Shown: in pieces, positions 131-7,126 of the stretch
How the letters are laid out: the number at the start of each line of letters is the position of its first letter
Numbering within the stretch: the first letter of the stretch is position 1
Source: an uncultured Monoglobus sp.
GTDB lineage: Bacteria > Bacillota > Clostridia > Monoglobales > Monoglobaceae
Length of the DNA: 37,967 nucleotides
Reading direction: 5' to 3'
Assembly (NCBI GenBank): GCA_947624305.1
Contig: CANQKC010000027.1
Location: 1-37,967 of the forward strand
The notes under the pieces: model-generated
Database searches by the model: none
The model's input: the letters and a program-made list of their open reading frames with translations, nothing else
Told to the model about the DNA's origin: nothing
Program-made: the position numbers and the translations under genes

Positions 131-159
131 TTGACAAATCCCTCGTACGGGTGTAAGAT
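131..159 (+). promoter_or_regulatory. Sigma-A promoter of the BlaI/M56 operon
   Basis: A perfect -35 box TTGACA (131-136) is separated by 17 bases from the -10 box TAAGAT (154-159). It lies about 50 bases upstream of the repressor start, which has the strong ribosome binding site AAAGGAGG at 192-199. The boxes and spacing are seen directly; use by the housekeeping sigma factor is inferred. Confidence 0.8.
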
Positions 160-167
160 AGATTTAG

Positions 168-181
168 AGTACTTAAGTAGT
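168..181. promoter_or_regulatory. Candidate operator palindrome for the BlaI-type repressor
   Basis: AGTACTTAAGTAGT is a 14-base palindrome with a single mismatched pair. It sits 8 bases past the -10 box, around or just after the expected transcription start. The half-site AGTACTT also occurs at 126-132, touching the -35 box. BlaI/MecI repressors bind short palindromes with a TAC/GTA core in their own promoters, so autoregulation is the natural reading. It is an inference from position and symmetry. Confidence 0.5.
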
Positions 182-205
182 CTGATTTTCTAAAGGAGGC
201 ATACT

Positions 206-589
206 ATGAAAGGCCATGAAAATTTACCGCAGATCTCAACCTCTGAGCTCGAGGTTATGAATGTTCTGTGGAGAAACGGAAGCATGACAAGCGCGGAGAT
301 CGTCGCCGAGGTGTCAAAGGTCAGCGAATGGAAGCCCAAGACCATCCACACGCTCATCAAACGCCTCGCAGCAAAAGGAGCGATAACGGCTGAAAAGATC
401 AATCTTCACTCCAACATTTACTCGGCGGCAGTCGATGAGGAAGAGTACAGACAGCACGAGGCGGAGACCTTTGTCAAAAAGATGTTCGGCGGCTCGGTCA
501 ACAAGATGCTGATCGGCTTTATCAAAAAGAACAAGCTGACCGGCGACGACATCGAGGAGCTGAAAAACATTCTTAAAGGAGATCAATAA
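206..589 (+). CDS. BlaI/MecI/CopY-family winged-helix repressor
   Basis: A 127-residue protein that matches the BlaI/MecI family in size and layout. The N-terminal winged helix (about residues 8-75) contains ISTSELEVMNVLW, the family's opening helix, and KTIHTLIKRLAAKGAI, the recognition helix and wing. The C-terminal half is the dimerisation and cleavage region. In this family the dimer represses its own operon until the partner M56 protease inactivates it. The stop codon overlaps the protease start by one base (TAATG), so the two are translationally coupled. The start is fixed by AAAGGAGG six bases upstream. A promoter and a palindromic operator candidate lie directly upstream. The family is clear; the true signal and target genes are unknown, and resistance to beta-lactams should not be assumed. 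Confidence 0.93.
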   Translation: MKGHENLPQISTSELEVMNVLWRNGSMTSAEIVAEVSKVSEWKPKTIHTLIKRLAAKGAITAEKINLHSNIYSAAVDEEEYRQHEAETFVKKMFGGSVNKMLIGFIKKNKLTGDDIEELKNILKGDQ

Positions 590-2220
590 TGTTTGTTAAG
601 CTGTTATTCAGTTTTTGCCTCACCGCGGCGCTTTACGGAACGGTTCTGGGCGTTGTTGTGTATCTGCTCAACCTTTTGCTCAAAAAACAAATTCCGGCGC
701 GGTTCAGGTTTTTGCTGTGGCTGATCGCGGCGCTCAGGCTGCTGATGCCGATCGCGCCCGAGGCGAGGTTCAGCCTGTTTAATCTTCTTCCCGCGCCGAT
801 CGCGGAGGGCGTCAGCGCGCAAACGGCGCCCGCGGCGGGAATGGACATATTTTACATAGCAGCGCTGATCTGGCTGTGCGGCGCGGCGGCGATGCTGCTT
901 CGCGCGTTTATCCCGCAATTTTTACTGTGCCGCGAACTTGCAAAGCTTCAAAGATACGACGACCCTGTCTTTGAGGAAACGCTGAAGGAGTGCCGCGAAA
1001 AGCTCGGAATTCGGCGCGAGATCGTTCCGGTGATCCAAAACAGGATCGACACGCCCGCGGTGTTCGGATTTTTCCGTCCGAGACTGCTGCTGCAAAAGGA
1101 TGTTAAATCCATGCCTCGCGACGAGGTTCGGCACATAATTCTTCACGAGTGCTGCCATGTGAAGCGGCATGATGTGCTTAGCGGCTGTCTGCTGTCCGTC
1201 GCGCGGGCTGTTCACTGGTTCAATCCGCTCGTTTGGCTGTTTGATTTTAAGGCTAGGCAGGAAATGGAGATAGCGGCTGACGAGAAAGCCGTGGGTTATA
1301 TGAAAAACGACGAGCGAATTGACTACGGAATGACAATAATCAACACCGCCGCGAAATTCTCGCTCTACGGGCCGAGCGCGGCAGTCGGAATGTCGGGTGA
1401 GAAGCGCAATATAAAGCGCAGGATAAAGAGCGTGGCCGCCTTTAAAAAACCGGCCATGATCTTCAGAATTCTCGGCGCGGCGCTCGTCATGGCCGCGGGC
1501 TGCACATGTCTGACAAACGCCAAGCTGCCCGAGCCGATAAGGCCCGAGAGCAACGAGCTTTACCGATCAATAGTCTCACACCGATTCAGCCCTGACTCCC
1601 AACAGGCGGACCAATCCGCGGATGCCTCCGATGCGGAGCGGACGGATAATTTCCGCCCCGAAAGCTCCGACCGATCCGCGGAAAGCGGCACGAACGCCGC
1701 TCAAACAAACGCGGCGGCGAGTTCCGAACGAACCGTTTCGGGCGGCGAGCCGAACCCCTCAACGCAGCCCCCGACGACGGTCATAATAAACGACGCTGGG
1801 ATCTATTCATCGGCAAGTCAAAACGGCACGGCGGAAAACGCCGCGGAAAACGGCACCGTGTTTTTCACGGACGTTGACGGCGGAACTTTGACCGCGAAGG
1901 CGAACCGCTTGAAGCCCGGCACCGGCTATGACGATGTTAAGTTCGCCGCCGAAGCCGGTGGCGGACAGCCATACGAGACCGGGATCGGCGCGGGCGAGAC
2001 AAAAACCGTCGAAAAGGAGCCGACAGACGGCGAAATCAGCGTTTATCTGAACTCGGAAAGCTCCGACATGGTCTCGATCGACGTGTATGACAGCAATCAG
2101 CCCGCCGGCAGGCTGTTATTAAAACCCAGGACATTCGCCTCATACACTGTGTCGGGCCTCAAAGGGCTTTGCCGCCTCGTCATAAATGCCTCCGCTCCGA
2201 CAAAAGCGTTGATCTACTAA
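589..2220 (+). CDS. M56 (BlaR1-like) membrane metalloprotease with an unusual C-terminal domain
   Basis: A 543-residue integral membrane protein. Hydrophobic segments lie near residues 4-30, 41-55, 86-106 and 290-305. The zinc-protease motif HECCH is at 186-190, followed by the downstream glutamate motif EMEIAADE near 225-232, as in BlaR1/MecR1. Beyond the last membrane segment there is a Ser/Ala/Asn-rich linker (about 320-430) and then a compact domain at 439-543. This domain is not the serine-type penicillin-binding sensor of BlaR1: no SxxK/SxN/KTG set is visible. It matches the next gene's product closely, sharing PGTG, KPRTFA.YTV and the terminal KALIY. By family analogy the outer domain senses an envelope signal and the inner protease domain relieves repression by the BlaI-type partner. 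The ligand is unknown. The gene is co-transcribed with the repressor. Confidence 0.88.
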   Translation: MFVKLLFSFCLTAALYGTVLGVVVYLLNLLLKKQIPARFRFLLWLIAALRLLMPIAPEARFSLFNLLPAPIAEGVSAQTAPAAGMDIFYIAALIWLCGAAAMLLRAFIPQFLLCRELAKLQRYDDPVFEETLKECREKLGIRREIVPVIQNRIDTPAVFGFFRPRLLLQKDVKSMPRDEVRHIILHECCHVKRHDVLSGCLLSVARAVHWFNPLVWLFDFKARQEMEIAADEKAVGYMKNDERIDYGMTIINTAAKFSLYGPSAAVGMSGEKRNIKRRIKSVAAFKKPAMIFRILGAALVMAAGCTCLTNAKLPEPIRPESNELYRSIVSHRFSPDSQQADQSADASDAERTDNFRPESSDRSAESGTNAAQTNAAASSERTVSGGEPNPSTQPPTTVIINDAGIYSSASQNGTAENAAENGTVFFTDVDGGTLTAKANRLKPGTGYDDVKFAAEAGGGQPYETGIGAGETKTVEKEPTDGEISVYLNSESSDMVSIDVYDSNQPAGRLLLKPRTFASYTVSGLKGLCRLVINASAPTKALIY

Positions 2221-2251
2221 CGCAACACGCTTATTGATGTAGGGCGGCTGA

Positions 2252-2339
2252 GGCCGGAGCCGCGTAAGCGGGTTCGTGGCAACGTAATATTCCGATTGCA
2301 CTAATAAACGGGGCCACAAATCATTAACGAGAACGGACA
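2252..2339. repeat. 88-bp dispersed repeat, inverted copy at 34596-34683
   Basis: Read on the minus strand, this stretch follows the same order of blocks as 34596-34683: TGTCCG, CGTTAATGATTTG, CGTTTAT, CGGAATA, GAACCCGCT and ACGCGGCTCCGGCC. The spacing is identical and only scattered bases differ. Both copies are intergenic. The far copy lies inside a MITE-like element, so this one may be a remnant of the same family. Confidence 0.7.
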
Positions 2340-2342
2340 CTC

Positions 2343-2381
2343 GCCCACATGCCGCCGCGGGCGGATAATATCCGCCCCTAC
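2343..2381. repeat. Short dispersed palindromic repeat fragment
   Basis: This contains GCCCACATGCCGCC followed by the 19-base palindrome GGGCGGATAATATCCGCCC and CTAC. The same string recurs at 16894-16916, near 26150 and in every unit of the array at 30095-30915. It looks like a REP-type intergenic repeat. Together with the preceding 88-bp repeat it fills most of the 213-bp gap between the protease gene and the next gene, where no convincing promoter was found. Confidence 0.75.
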
Positions 2382-2433
2382 AAATTAATTATTACAATAT
2401 AACGCTAAATATTAAACTGAAAGGATGATTGAT

Positions 2434-2877
2434 ATGAAAAACTCGAAAATCAAACAAACGATCGCGGCGCTGTCCGCCGCGGCGATCCTTGCGGCGATGC
2501 CCGCGGCTTACGCCGAAGCAGCGAACCTCTCGCTTACCCCGAGCGCGGCCGCGTCGGCAAACAAGCTGCCGCCCGGCACCGGTTTTGACAGCATGACGTC
2601 TGCCCACCCGACGGCGTGTACCGCGACATTGACCAAAGGCGAAACCGCGGTCACAAAAGCCGCGGACGAAAACGGAAAAATCACGTTTTATTTAAGCTCG
2701 GAAACGGCGGACATAATTAAGATAAACGTCTCGACCGACCCAGCGCGCGAAAAAGTTGCAAGCCTCTGCGCGAAGCCGCGAACCTTTGCGGAATACACGG
2801 TTGAGGGCCTGACTCCCGGCGGGAACTATTTAATCACATTCACTGCCGAGGCAAACGGCAAAGCGTTGATTTACTAA
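2434..2877 (+). CDS. Small secreted protein homologous to the M56 sensor's C-terminal domain
   Basis: The 147-residue product has an N-terminal signal peptide (MKNSK, hydrophobic AALSAAAILAAM, cleavage near AYA-EA). The body from about residue 42 aligns end to end with residues 439-543 of the upstream M56 protease, sharing NKLPPGTGFD, GET, YLSSE, KPRTFAEYTV and the C-terminal KALIY. I recognise no named family. An ATG also occurs at 2425, but it abuts the Shine-Dalgarno GAAAGG (2419-2424). The ATG at 2434 is correctly spaced and puts the signal peptide at the N terminus. A role as ligand, decoy or structural partner of the M56 outer domain is inference from homology and adjacency. The next gene follows after 16 bases. 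Confidence 0.8.
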   Translation: MKNSKIKQTIAALSAAAILAAMPAAYAEAANLSLTPSAAASANKLPPGTGFDSMTSAHPTACTATLTKGETAVTKAADENGKITFYLSSETADIIKINVSTDPAREKVASLCAKPRTFAEYTVEGLTPGGNYLITFTAEANGKALIY

Positions 2878-2893
2878 CGAAAGGATGATCGAT

Positions 2894-5038
2894 ATGAAAA
2901 ACTCAAAATTAAAACAAACGATCGCGGCGCTGTCCGCCGCCGCAATGCTTGCGGCAATGCCCGCGGCTTATGCCGAATATTCACTTGATGATATATCGGC
3001 AATTTCCAACCTGACCGATGTCTCTCAGACAGAGTCGGATCGGGTACCGAATTACAGCTACATGATATATTCCGGTGAAAACGCAAAATTCGGAGTTGAG
3101 CATCAGGGTGACGTTGTTATTGAACCCGTCTGGGACGACATCAATTTCGGCAACAACTATTTCGGCGGCGAGTGCGTCAACCTGATGTCCGCCAGGGAGC
3201 TGGCCGATGTGCGCAAGCTTGACTCCGTCTGCTTTGACACGGTAGCGGCCGGGACAAACAGCAGTCGGTTTGCGACCTACGATGAGATCGCAAAATATCG
3301 CGACAAAGTCAGAGTGTCTGTGAAGAAAGACGGCAAATGGGGCTGCGCGGACGTCAAAACAGGAGAGCTTGTTATTCCGTGCGAGTACAAAGAGGCGGCG
3401 ATCGACTATAACAAGATAGCGCTTCTGACCGCCGATGACAAATATGCCGTGTCCGATCTCGACGGAAACATGATCGTAGGCCCGATATACGACTACGTTC
3501 AAAGCGGATACTCGGGCAGTCTGACCGTTGTAGGCCGAGACTACGGCTACACGGTGATCGACGAGGTGGGCCGCGAACTTCTTCCTCTTTCCGAAAACGA
3601 GCCGCAGATAATCGGCGGCAAATACATCACACTGACGCGCGATGACGAAATTACCGAGGTATATTCAATGGACGGAAAAAAGCTGTTTGAGAAAAAGGCG
3701 AGCGGCATCCTCGACTACAGCGATGACATATTTGTTTTCAACACGAGCGCTTCGGAAAACGACAGCGACACCGCCTTTGAGATCTGCGGCGCTGACGGCG
3801 CCACAATTTTAAGCGACAGCGGCAAATACTCTTCCGAGATCCTGCTCAGCACCAAAGCGTCTTACACCTATATCGACAACCTGTATCCGTTCAGCGATCC
3901 CGCAGCCAAAGACCTGCCGACCGTTATTGCCTTGAGAAGCTCCGAGCGCGATGAAAACGGCATCGGATACTATGATTATTACGACACAAGCGGAAAGCTG
4001 CTTTTGAGCGGATATGAGGCGCAGGGAGGCATATGCCCGTCGGCTGTTTTGATAACGATCTCCAAAAACGGTAAGATCGGTTTTGCGGACAGATACGGCA
4101 ATATCGTGCGCGAACCGCAGTTCGACCGCGTGAGCGGCCCGATCGTCACCAAAAACTGCAAAAACTATTTTATGTACAATGACGGCAGTTTAAAAGAACT
4201 GCCCGATGTGGGCGATCTGCAGGCATACGCGGTCACTGACGGAGAAAAAATTTATTATGAGATAAGCGGCGATTTTCATAACGACGGGGAGTACAATATG
4301 GCTCTGATGGACTCAAACGGCGATTTCATACTTCCTCCGATCTTTCACAGTATGAGCATTTTAAGCGGCGGCCTTATGCGGCTTTATATAAACCGGAACA
4401 ACGGCGTTGATAAGTACGCCGCGAAGCTCGCCGACGATCCAAAGCCCGTTGACATCACGCCGTATATCACAAATCCGACGCTTGACGAGAGCGCTCAGTG
4501 GTTCGTGGATAACGGATATGTAACCGGCGCGACCGCCGAGGAGCTCAGAACAGGCGAAGCGACCACCCGCGCCGAGTTTCTGGCGCTGATTTCAAGAATA
4601 GACAACTGGCAGATCGACGTGAACGCGCCTGCCGCCTTCCCCGACACCGAGGGCCATTGGGCGAACGGGATAATCGTCGAAGCGAAAAACCGCGGTCTGA
4701 TAACCGCGGACGAAAGCGGGAACTTTGATCCCGACGGCGTTATCAGCTATCGCGGTGAATATGAAATTTTGCTCCGTGAAATCGGCTTCTCTGAGGAGGT
4801 TTCGGCATCGGCGAACTCTGATCTTTACGGCGAGGACGCCTTCGGGCGATATGCGAACATCAGCCACAGCAGCTCTGATCCGGTTCCGAGGCTGATAACC
4901 TTCAGGATCCTCAAAGGCTATAATGACGAGGGCAGATATTATCAATTCGATCCGAACAAATTCGGCAGCGAGGAGACACTCTCAGACGGCCCCGTAATAT
5001 CGACCTCAGACAGCACCGATACATATTTCTTTAACTAA
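2894..5038 (+). CDS. Secreted WG-repeat protein with SLH-like domain
   Basis: A 714-residue exported protein. Its signal peptide is nearly identical to that of the preceding gene. WG (KWG)-type beta repeats follow, seen as DGKWGCADVKTGELVIPCEY, the related DDKYAVSDLDGNMIVGPIYD, and NGKIGFADRYGNIVREPQFD. A surface-layer-homology-like region lies near residues 530-640, with FPDTEGHWANGIIVEAKNRGLI and FDPDG as its clearest signature. SLH domains usually anchor proteins to wall polysaccharide, so this is probably a surface protein; what the WG repeats bind is unknown. The ATG at 2894 is preferred over 2885 because GAAAGG directly touches the latter. A strong hairpin terminator follows the stop codon. 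It is probably co-transcribed with the small secreted protein. Confidence 0.82.
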   Translation: MKNSKLKQTIAALSAAAMLAAMPAAYAEYSLDDISAISNLTDVSQTESDRVPNYSYMIYSGENAKFGVEHQGDVVIEPVWDDINFGNNYFGGECVNLMSARELADVRKLDSVCFDTVAAGTNSSRFATYDEIAKYRDKVRVSVKKDGKWGCADVKTGELVIPCEYKEAAIDYNKIALLTADDKYAVSDLDGNMIVGPIYDYVQSGYSGSLTVVGRDYGYTVIDEVGRELLPLSENEPQIIGGKYITLTRDDEITEVYSMDGKKLFEKKASGILDYSDDIFVFNTSASENDSDTAFEICGADGATILSDSGKYSSEILLSTKASYTYIDNLYPFSDPAAKDLPTVIALRSSERDENGIGYYDYYDTSGKLLLSGYEAQGGICPSAVLITISKNGKIGFADRYGNIVREPQFDRVSGPIVTKNCKNYFMYNDGSLKELPDVGDLQAYAVTDGEKIYYEISGDFHNDGEYNMALMDSNGDFILPPIFHSMSILSGGLMRLYINRNNGVDKYAAKLADDPKPVDITPYITNPTLDESAQWFVDNGYVTGATAEELRTGEATTRAEFLALISRIDNWQIDVNAPAAFPDTEGHWANGIIVEAKNRGLITADESGNFDPDGVISYRGEYEILLREIGFSEEVSASANSDLYGEDAFGRYANISHSSSDPVPRLITFRILKGYNDEGRYYQFDPNKFGSEETLSDGPVISTSDSTDTYFFN

Positions 5039-5045
5039 ATAACAC

Positions 5046-5081
5046 AAACACCGCTTCGGCTTTTGAGCCGAAGCGGTGTTT
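5046..5081. terminator. Bidirectional rho-independent terminator
   Basis: A perfect 16-bp stem (AAACACCGCTTCGGCT with its complement) encloses the 4-base loop TTTG. It sits between the convergent WG/SLH and anti-sigma genes. The stem ends in A-rich sequence on the left and T-rich sequence on the right, so it can end transcription from both sides. Confidence 0.92.
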
Positions 5082-5095
5082 CATTATGTCATTAT

Positions 5096-7126
5096 TTATT
5101 TTGTCTTCTTTGTGCTGTCGGTTATCATAACCTTAACATCGTCGCCGCTGCCGAGTGAAACCAAAGTGTAATCAAGGTTCTTTTCCTTGAGATACTCGGT
5201 GAACGCGGGATAATCGTCCTTACTGAAATACAGTGTGACAGCGCCGTCCTTATCGATCTTTGAGCAATCCGCCATGCCCGAGTTCATTATCTCGTCAAGC
5301 GCGTCTTTGTCTTTGATCTCGCAGCTTATTACCGAAGCTTTGTCCATATCAGCGGACTTTTTCGCGTACTCCTCGGTCTCGCCTTTGGCGTTGCGCTTGC
5401 GTTCGGACTCCTTCACGGTTCCGGGACGCAGGGTCGCCTTCGGGCCGGGTGATGTGCTCGGTCCCGGTGAGCCGCTCGGTGCGGGTGACGCACTCGGCTT
5501 AGGCGTTGCCGTCGTCTTAGGTGCCTCCGTCGGCTTGGGAGCCGCCGTCGGCGCCTGCGTGGGCGCGGCCTTCGGCTCAACCGTTGGAATCGCGACCGAG
5601 GCCGCCTGCGCTTCGGGTTCGGTATATGTGAACGTGTCGGGCGCGCTTGCTCCTCCGCCGCCTCCCGCGACAGTCACGCTGTCGGGAGCCACATATGTGG
5701 GCGAGGTTATGCCCGTCGCTATGTCCGGAAGAATTATCTTCGGCGTCACATATGGCATTTTCGTGGGCGCGGGCGTGGGAGCCGCCGCCTTGGCCGTGGT
5801 TGACGATGTAGTCGTTTTCGGCGTTGTACTCGTTGTGGTTCTCGAGGTTGTGCCGCTGCTTGTGGTTGTTCTTGAGGTCGTGCCGCTTGTGGTTTTCGCG
5901 GTGGTACCGCTGCTTGTGGTACTTTTGCCCGACGAGTTGCTTCCCATCGGCAGAGCCGATGACGCGGACGGTCTCGAAGTCGCCTTTGGTGATGCCGCCG
6001 AGGCTGATCCCGAAGCGGGTTTCGGCGTTGCCGCCGACGAACCCGCGGTCGCGCCCGGACGGCTCGTAGACGATGGTGAGTCTTTATCATCGTCCTTATC
6101 ATCCGTCACATACTCGTCAAGACCGCTGGAGCTGGGCTTCGCCGTGGCTCTCGCGTCAGCGATCGCGGCGTTGTCCGAGAAATTATATATCTCGTCAGAC
6201 GACTTCATCACCTGATACAGGCCGCTTCCCGCGACTCCGAGAACCAGCACCGCGCTCAAAGCGGCAGGAGCGACAATGCGCCAGTTTGCATGCTTTATAA
6301 CATAATCGGTCTTATCCTTGACCGCCTCAAGAAAGCCGCGGAGCTTATCCGCCGCTCCTTCGCCGTTTTCGGCCTTTATCGCGGCGCGCTCGGCCTTGAC
6401 CTCTGGAGCCGCGGCCTCAAGCTTTTCGCGAATGCCCGAAAGCAAATCAACATGGGGCTCGGGAGTCTTGGTGTTGTTTAATACGCCGATCATGTCCTTG
6501 ATCTCGTAATATTCCATGCGGCAGTTTTCGCAGTTCTTAAGATGAGCTTCGATCACCGCTTTTTCGTCCTCATCGGAGGCGTCCGACACATAATCATAGA
6601 GCAGATCCGCGCACTCGCCGCAGCTCAGCGTGTCAAGCTCACTGTCGGCGCTCTCAAAGCCCGGCAGAGAGTCGATTGTCGGAATGGGGCCCGTATTGCC
6701 CGTAACCTCACTGTTTTTGATCGGGGCCGCGTCAAATCCGGCGGACATTCCAATGCCTCTTTCAATTTCCTCATCGTCAAACCGAAGAGTGCTTATGCTC
6801 GCCAAAAACTTGTCAAAGCTTCCATCGGGCAAATCGTCATAGGCAACCGCGTTTTCGGGTTCGTCGACAGTCTCTGCTTCGATAACCGCGTTTTCGGGTT
6901 CGTCGACAGTCTCTGCTTCGATAACCGCGTTTTCCGGTTCTTCGGCAGTTTCGGCTTCCGGCATTTCGATTTTGATGCCGCCGTCAGGCTCCGCATCAGT
7001 CTCGAAATCAAAGCGCCTCTCCTCGGTTTTCTCATCCAGATTGATCTGACGGATATCGTCCGCGATACTTCCCATAACTCCGCTGTACTTTTCGGCAAGG
7101 TCTTTATCCTTCTCAAAATCTGACAT
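5096..7126 (-). CDS. Membrane anti-sigma factor with zinc-finger (ZAS) domain and long wall-spanning region
   Basis: The 676-residue product lies downstream of an ECF sigma gene in the same direction. A zinc-binding anti-sigma motif is visible as HLKNCENC (H195, C199, C202), with a second Cys pair at C169/C172. One membrane segment spans about 283-306. A very long Ser/Thr/Pro/Ala-rich stretch follows (about 345-610), then a small C-terminal domain containing DYPAFTEYLKEKNL (about 611-676). In this family the cytoplasmic zinc domain holds the sigma factor inactive until an envelope signal triggers release or proteolysis. Unusually, about 165 acidic residues precede the zinc motif, including tandem copies of a 13-residue unit. 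The start is supported by GGAGGGG a few bases upstream. Confidence 0.88.
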   Translation of the reverse strand: MSDFEKDKDLAEKYSGVMGSIADDIRQINLDEKTEERRFDFETDAEPDGGIKIEMPEAETAEEPENAVIEAETVDEPENAVIEAETVDEPENAVAYDDLPDGSFDKFLASISTLRFDDEEIERGIGMSAGFDAAPIKNSEVTGNTGPIPTIDSLPGFESADSELDTLSCGECADLLYDYVSDASDEDEKAVIEAHLKNCENCRMEYYEIKDMIGVLNNTKTPEPHVDLLSGIREKLEAAAPEVKAERAAIKAENGEGAADKLRGFLEAVKDKTDYVIKHANWRIVAPAALSAVLVLGVAGSGLYQVMKSSDEIYNFSDNAAIADARATAKPSSSGLDEYVTDDKDDDKDSPSSTSRPGATAGSSAATPKPASGSASAASPKATSRPSASSALPMGSNSSGKSTTSSGTTAKTTSGTTSRTTTSSGTTSRTTTSTTPKTTTSSTTAKAAAPTPAPTKMPYVTPKIILPDIATGITSPTYVAPDSVTVAGGGGGASAPDTFTYTEPEAQAASVAIPTVEPKAAPTQAPTAAPKPTEAPKTTATPKPSASPAPSGSPGPSTSPGPKATLRPGTVKESERKRNAKGETEEYAKKSADMDKASVISCEIKDKDALDEIMNSGMADCSKIDKDGAVTLYFSKDDYPAFTEYLKEKNLDYTLVSLGSGDDVKVMITDSTKKTK
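6845..6922 (-). repeat. Two exact 39-bp tandem repeats inside the anti-sigma gene
   Basis: Positions 6845-6883 and 6884-6922 are identical 39-base units, and a diverged third unit begins at 6923. Each encodes a 13-residue acidic unit around PENAVIEAETVDE. The length is a multiple of three, so unit gain or loss would keep the frame. The exact identity suggests a recent duplication by slippage or recombination. Confidence 0.9.

Follow-up and report, generated by a model that had tools for sequence, protein, structure and literature searches.

A BlaR1-type M56 receptor of Monoglobus, a gut bacterium, is encoded next to a small secreted protein that is a free copy of the receptor's own C-terminal ectodomain. 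Both genes belong to the first operon of the window, with the order blaI-M56-small-WG/SLH; by the window, we mean the whole stretch of 37,967 nucleotides analyzed here, which is the entire contig C27 of a Monoglobus MAG with a genome of 2.68 Mb. Most of what is known about M56 receptors concerns beta-lactam sensing; to our knowledge, the signals sensed by most of the others are not known. The explanation that we favor overall, tentatively and with slightly less than even confidence, is a signaling operon in which the free ectodomain competes for the partner of the receptor.

The small secreted protein is a copy of the receptor ectodomain

The preliminary description had proposed homology between the C-terminal ~105 residues of the M56 protein and the mature part of the small protein, and had named the absence of a significant match beforehand as the result that would speak against it. 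By BLASTP, the match was significant, with 45/114 identities (39%; E=4e-17), and the shared blocks were as described, namely PGTG, YL-SE, KPRTFA.YTV, and a C-terminal KALIY; the boundaries assigned to both genes and to the ectodomain were also correct (Table 1). In a genome-wide search, the only other full-domain relatives of the small protein were two M56 ectodomains, that of its own receptor (E=2e-13) and that of the paralogue on contig C23 (E=2e-10). The signal peptide of the small gene matched that of the WG gene (88% protein identity; E=6e-11), and no signal peptide comparable to this pair was found elsewhere in the genome.

The M56 protein scored 182 bits against PF05569 (cut-off, 31), and its HECCH motif corresponds to residues 186-190, of which the H, E, and final H are invariant among 14 relatives. 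The canonical penicillin-binding sensor is indeed absent, as had been noted: Pfam detected PF05569 only, with no penicillin-binding or beta-lactamase domain, and the NCBIfam model blaR1_generic gave 129 bits against a cut-off of 400. Conserved beta-lactam sensing was rejected because the M56 protein lacks a penicillin-binding domain.

Pairwise omega values, obtained from few pairs with a simple counting method, were 0.07-0.16 for the free domain, compared with 0.13-0.27 for the ectodomain of the receptor and 0.12-0.16 for the WG protein. The sequences indicate that the free copy is under purifying selection, about as strong as that on the receptor ectodomain. With 60% of sites differing between them, the two domains may by now have different partners.

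Operon organization and regulation

The features of the operon are listed in Table 1. The blaI-type repressor gene lies directly upstream of the M56 gene, with overlapping ends, and the WG gene starts 7 nt past the small gene and is followed by a strong hairpin. Its product carries a single SLH copy, with 26 bits against PF00395 (cut-off, 20.8). No + strand terminator was found within the M56-small spacer (2221-2424), and a promoter belonging to the small gene was rejected, as none was present on the + strand of the same interval. The simplest reading of this arrangement is a single autoregulated operon.

The position and symmetry of the palindrome AGAGTACTTAAGTAGTCT suggest that it is bound by BlaI. 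The palindrome is identical in 6/7 genomes with this locus (that of G005 differs) and is the sole site in its own genome at up to three mismatches. A larger BlaI regulon sharing the palindrome was rejected, as no second site was found genome-wide at that threshold. Convergent with the operon, on the - strand at 5096-7126 of the window, lies a gene for a 676-aa protein with short in-frame repeats and a zf-HC2 zinc finger (PF13490, E=2e-7) of the kind found in anti-sigma factors.

Table 1. Features of the blaI-M56-small-WG/SLH operon and of a further M56 locus (locus C) of the same genome; positions are those of the window unless a contig is named
Feature	Position	Strand	Basis
Sigma-70-type operon promoter, TTGACA-17-TAAGAT	131..159	+	10/12 consensus positions; kept in 7/7 locus-A genomes
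Palindrome AGAGTACTTAAGTAGTCT, candidate BlaI operator just 3' of the -10 box	166..183	+	16/18 positions symmetric
blaI-type repressor, 127 aa	206..589	+	PF03965 Penicillinase_R, E=3e-32
M56 (BlaR1-type) membrane metalloprotease receptor, 543 aa, HECCH	589..2220	+	PF05569, E=2e-53, residues 9-281
M56 C-terminal ectodomain, ~residues 434-543, all-beta	about 1888..2220	+	Homology to small protein
M56-small spacer; ancestral ends TAACG and AAAGGATGAT, separated by inserted palindromic repeats	2221..2424	+	Spacer comparison, six genomes
Small secreted protein, 150 aa: signal peptide (2425-2514) and free M56 ectodomain copy	2425..2877	+	
Secreted protein of 717 aa with WG repeats and a single S-layer-homology domain	2885..5038	+	PF14903, E=5e-16; PF00395, E=8e-6
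16-bp hairpin, likely operon terminator	5046..5081	.	Scored on - strand; stem common to both strands
Locus C: blaI, M56c, SLH protein array, free M56c ectodomain copy mid-array	L122 1488-12235, contig C13	reverse	

Origin of the small gene

The pattern at the gene boundaries provides good support from sequence for an origin of the small gene by tandem duplication of a unit consisting of the M56 3' end, the spacer, and the WG signal-peptide codons. The copied segment would have started within the M56 gene, in the 3' part encoding the ectodomain, crossed a short spacer, and ended among the signal-peptide codons of the WG gene, thereby fusing a signal peptide to an ectodomain. Both the gene order and the sequence at the two junctions match this expectation. 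In the genome under study, the M56 and small genes end with GCGTTGATYTACTAACG, the small and WG genes begin with AAAGGATGATYGATATGAAAAAC, and the M56-small spacer carries extra palindromic repeats between these ends. Within a genome, the small and WG genes share 72-91% DNA identity over their signal-peptide regions. Spacers in six genomes ranged from 16 to 349 nt, and in G005 both are 16 nt long. An event of this type across a gene boundary would represent a clear case of the birth of a secreted gene.

We note that in G011, a large part of the sequence between the M56 and small genes is found again between the small and WG genes. Spacers with palindromic repeats of the GGGCGGATAATATCCGCCC type were seen both in the window (2221-2424) and at L058 4642-5716.

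Conservation and relatives of the pair

The locus with the small, M56, and WG genes (locus A) was found in seven genomes (that under study, G003, G005, G006, G009, G010, and G011), and the small gene was retained in every one of them. Conservation of the pair, on which the preliminary description had also made its claim depend, was thus found in seven Monoglobus genomes, with the two genes adjacent in six and split over two contigs in G003. The sister loci are named uncultured Monoglobus and, in one case, just uncultured Clostridia bacterium ("Lapin" MAGs). A paralogous locus B, with the order blaI-M56b-WG, encodes the same ectodomain without a small gene. The WG proteins of the two loci are homologous (28%; E=5e-34), and the SLH domain is present in that of locus A and absent from both locus-B proteins scanned. 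In a domain tree, the free copies formed one clade (96/93) that was sister to the M56a ectodomains (98/98), and these two groups together stood apart from M56b (97/96). We conclude that the pair is genuine, that it dates back far within the genus, and that both of its members are under purifying selection; the sequences further indicate a single origin of the small gene.

In other genera (G016, G034, and G046), M56 proteins carry diverged relatives of this ectodomain at their C-terminus, and in G046, WG/SLH proteins again follow the M56 gene. In G034, an M56 receptor (L069 1564-4494) carries an extracellular LytR_cpsA_psr domain (PF03816, E=3e-27) followed by ectodomains of the small/M56a family. 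A phage or plasmid origin was rejected, as there were no relatives among plasmids or viral contigs.

Predicted fold and conserved residues

Structure prediction gave a beta sandwich with one short helix for the small protein (pLDDT 83). In the full-length M56 model, the ectodomain had a pLDDT of about 74-90 and its elements were ordered as in the small protein; the model was set aside for topology, as it was poor beyond the ectodomain (mean pLDDT 48). The best fold matches were GOLD domains, PPC/collagen-binding domains, and CBM-like jelly rolls, none below a Foldseek E of 1e-3, and the top match of the ectodomain family was a GOLD domain (Z 8.6). Sequence profiles leaned toward fibronectin III, with E=5e-5 for tenascin-R and only 0.05-0.2 for Pfam fn3. 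Because these weak hints conflict, with the structure jelly-roll/GOLD/PPC-like and the sequence fibronectin-III-like, function is not readable from the fold.

The residues invariant in free and tethered copies include S62, D66, P88, and R89, while K87 and T90 are common to the small protein and M56a and absent in M56b. All six lie near two strand-connecting loops in the model, and these loops would share one edge of the sandwich if it is of the up-and-down type.

Free copies at other M56 loci

A third Monoglobus M56 locus (locus C) encodes an ectodomain without profile similarity to that of loci A and B (hhalign probability 0.3%). A common origin of the locus-A and locus-C ectodomains was rejected on this value, within the reach of profiles, and as no profile match was found, the free copies of the two loci were treated as independent. 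A secreted free copy of the M56c ectodomain lies downstream, among SLH proteins, in six Monoglobus genomes including that under study. Neither type of free copy (A or C) is present in G002 or G004. In G007, an in-frame TAA in the M56c linker (L094, reverse strand 1554-1556) cuts off the ectodomain, which may reflect a sequencing error, a pseudogene, or a real split.

The wider look for neighboring secreted copies that the preliminary description had envisaged was extended to about 45 ectodomain-bearing M56-like genes of other Clostridia. A downstream same-strand homologue of the ectodomain was found at three of these loci, a count that stands without a chance expectation because the cross-locus background was unusable (some M56 genes unmasked and genome labels missing for most loci); frequencies in this survey are rough, as the gene finder requires an HExxH match and missed some M56 genes. 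At L148, the best of the three, a downstream lipoprotein is 47% identical to the receptor ectodomain over 233 residues. L167 encodes a secreted beta-helix protein carrying two copies of the receptor's terminal module, and at L171, a secreted protein has 93 residues in common with the receptor at 38% identity, with a transposase in between. L153 was rejected as a further case, as it consists of two tandem M56 genes. The same screen yielded no free copy at about 16 loci from members of the family or order outside Monoglobus. Since most other Clostridia M56 loci lack a detected free copy, the copy is not needed for the system as such.

We also observed split M56 receptors (L085 6656-9648, L104 3854-7456, L105, L106, L107, and L103), in which the protease gene stops at about 275 aa, and separate downstream genes encode the ectodomain together with the final transmembrane helix. 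Most of these sensor genes start with variants of MLEKLYTTKMSANKKxLQxRFxKIRS, and at L085, L104, and L105, two different sensor subunits lie in tandem behind one protease each.

Possible roles of the free copy

The recurrence of free copies at unrelated M56 loci, together with retention and selection, points to a role that depends on the small protein being a duplicate of the receptor's own domain. The ligand/receptor, decoy, or self-association circuit suggested in the preliminary description is thereby supported in part. Because the arrangement recurs independently in unrelated M56 sensors, the ectodomain probably also acts in soluble form, for example, by competing with the receptor. By analogy with BlaR1, an extracellular event at the ectodomain would activate the inward-facing protease, which would then cut BlaI, free the single promoter, and derepress the operon. 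The free copy would add a soluble ectodomain outside the cell, where it could bind the receptor's extracellular partner, either a ligand of cell-wall or glycan nature or the WG/SLH protein. As a product of the same operon, the free domain would then compete with the receptor and damp or tune the response. It is somewhat probable that the free copy and the receptor share a partner. Whether the free copy exerts negative feedback is less certain; we lean slightly against it, and the direction is a guess.

The main rival is a shared binding module without feedback, in which the receptor and the secreted products recognize one substrate and the free copy is an effector, not a decoy; it could, for instance, bind the wall or a glycan and cooperate with the SLH/WG protein. 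Consistent with such a module are the relationship of the BlaR1 sensor domain to class-D beta-lactamases (PMC9834060), the 57% identity between the GH10 ectodomain of RsgI6 and Xyn10D (PMC4711584), the two copies of the L167 terminal module on a secreted protein, and the CBMs and collagen-binding/PPC domains among the Foldseek matches. However, the copy is the ectodomain alone at Monoglobus loci A and C and at L148, with no enzyme or other module, and no fold match was strong; we regard this explanation as unlikely.

We consider it improbable that the free domain acts by self-association, either by hetero-oligomerizing with the receptor ectodomain or by forming a polymer or layer with one receptor-borne subunit, such that the receptor would read the amount of protein assembled outside. 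BlaR1 dimerizes and its sensor domains are mobile (PMC9834060), Ena1B and Ena2A were among the fold matches (Z 6.3-6.8), and weak matches to Enas (endospore appendage) were obtained with PF13157 in 3/20 members (best E=0.019), but all of these hints are below significance, and middling Z scores are common for beta sandwiches. Finally, tandem duplication accounts mechanically for the small gene, yet a nonadaptive by-product, expressed without a role of its own, is very improbable given the purifying selection on the free copy, its presence in every locus-A genome, and its independent recurrence with unrelated ectodomains.

Competition for the receptor's partner remains our preferred reading. 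More broadly, and more doubtfully, the freed sensor ectodomain could be a recurrent M56-BlaI regulatory device, in which unrelated ectodomains were independently copied to antagonize or report to their own receptors, as a bacterial counterpart of soluble decoy receptors. If such copies do act on their receptors, then bacteria possess soluble decoy receptors, which have arisen repeatedly. A free ectodomain homologue in the same operon also offers a small, soluble, purifiable protein with which to fish out the receptor's partner.

Comparison with known systems

The Monoglobus operon resembles BlaR1/BlaI and MecR1/MecI in that a BlaI-type repressor is followed by an M56 metalloprotease with an HExxH motif and a C-terminal ectodomain. 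BlaR1 cuts BlaI directly, its sensor domain can be shed by signal peptidase, and this domain likewise resembles free secreted proteins, the class-D beta-lactamases (PMC9834060). In contrast, the Monoglobus ectodomain is about 105 residues long and all-beta rather than of the penicillin-binding fold, the operon has no beta-lactamase or PBP, and the free relative is a bare ectodomain copy adjoining an SLH/WG surface protein. In the RsgI/SigI systems for polysaccharide sensing of Clostridium thermocellum, the ectodomain of a membrane regulator is also homologous to secreted products of the regulon, as in RsgI6 and Xyn10D (PMC4711584); however, these systems use an anti-sigma factor and a sigma factor instead of a protease and a repressor, and the free relative is an enzyme instead of a bare sensor domain. 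With these two precedents, homology between a receptor and a product is already known as a kind. The variant seen here, an M56 operon holding the ectodomain as a bare copy, is new; the literature searched, which covered few subscription journals, contained no description of M56 receptors with free copies of their ectodomain. The operon product matching PF14903 and PF00395 is akin to known WG-repeat and SLH surface proteins; here, such proteins are tied to an M56 regulator with the A/B ectodomain, an association also seen in another family of the order (L115).
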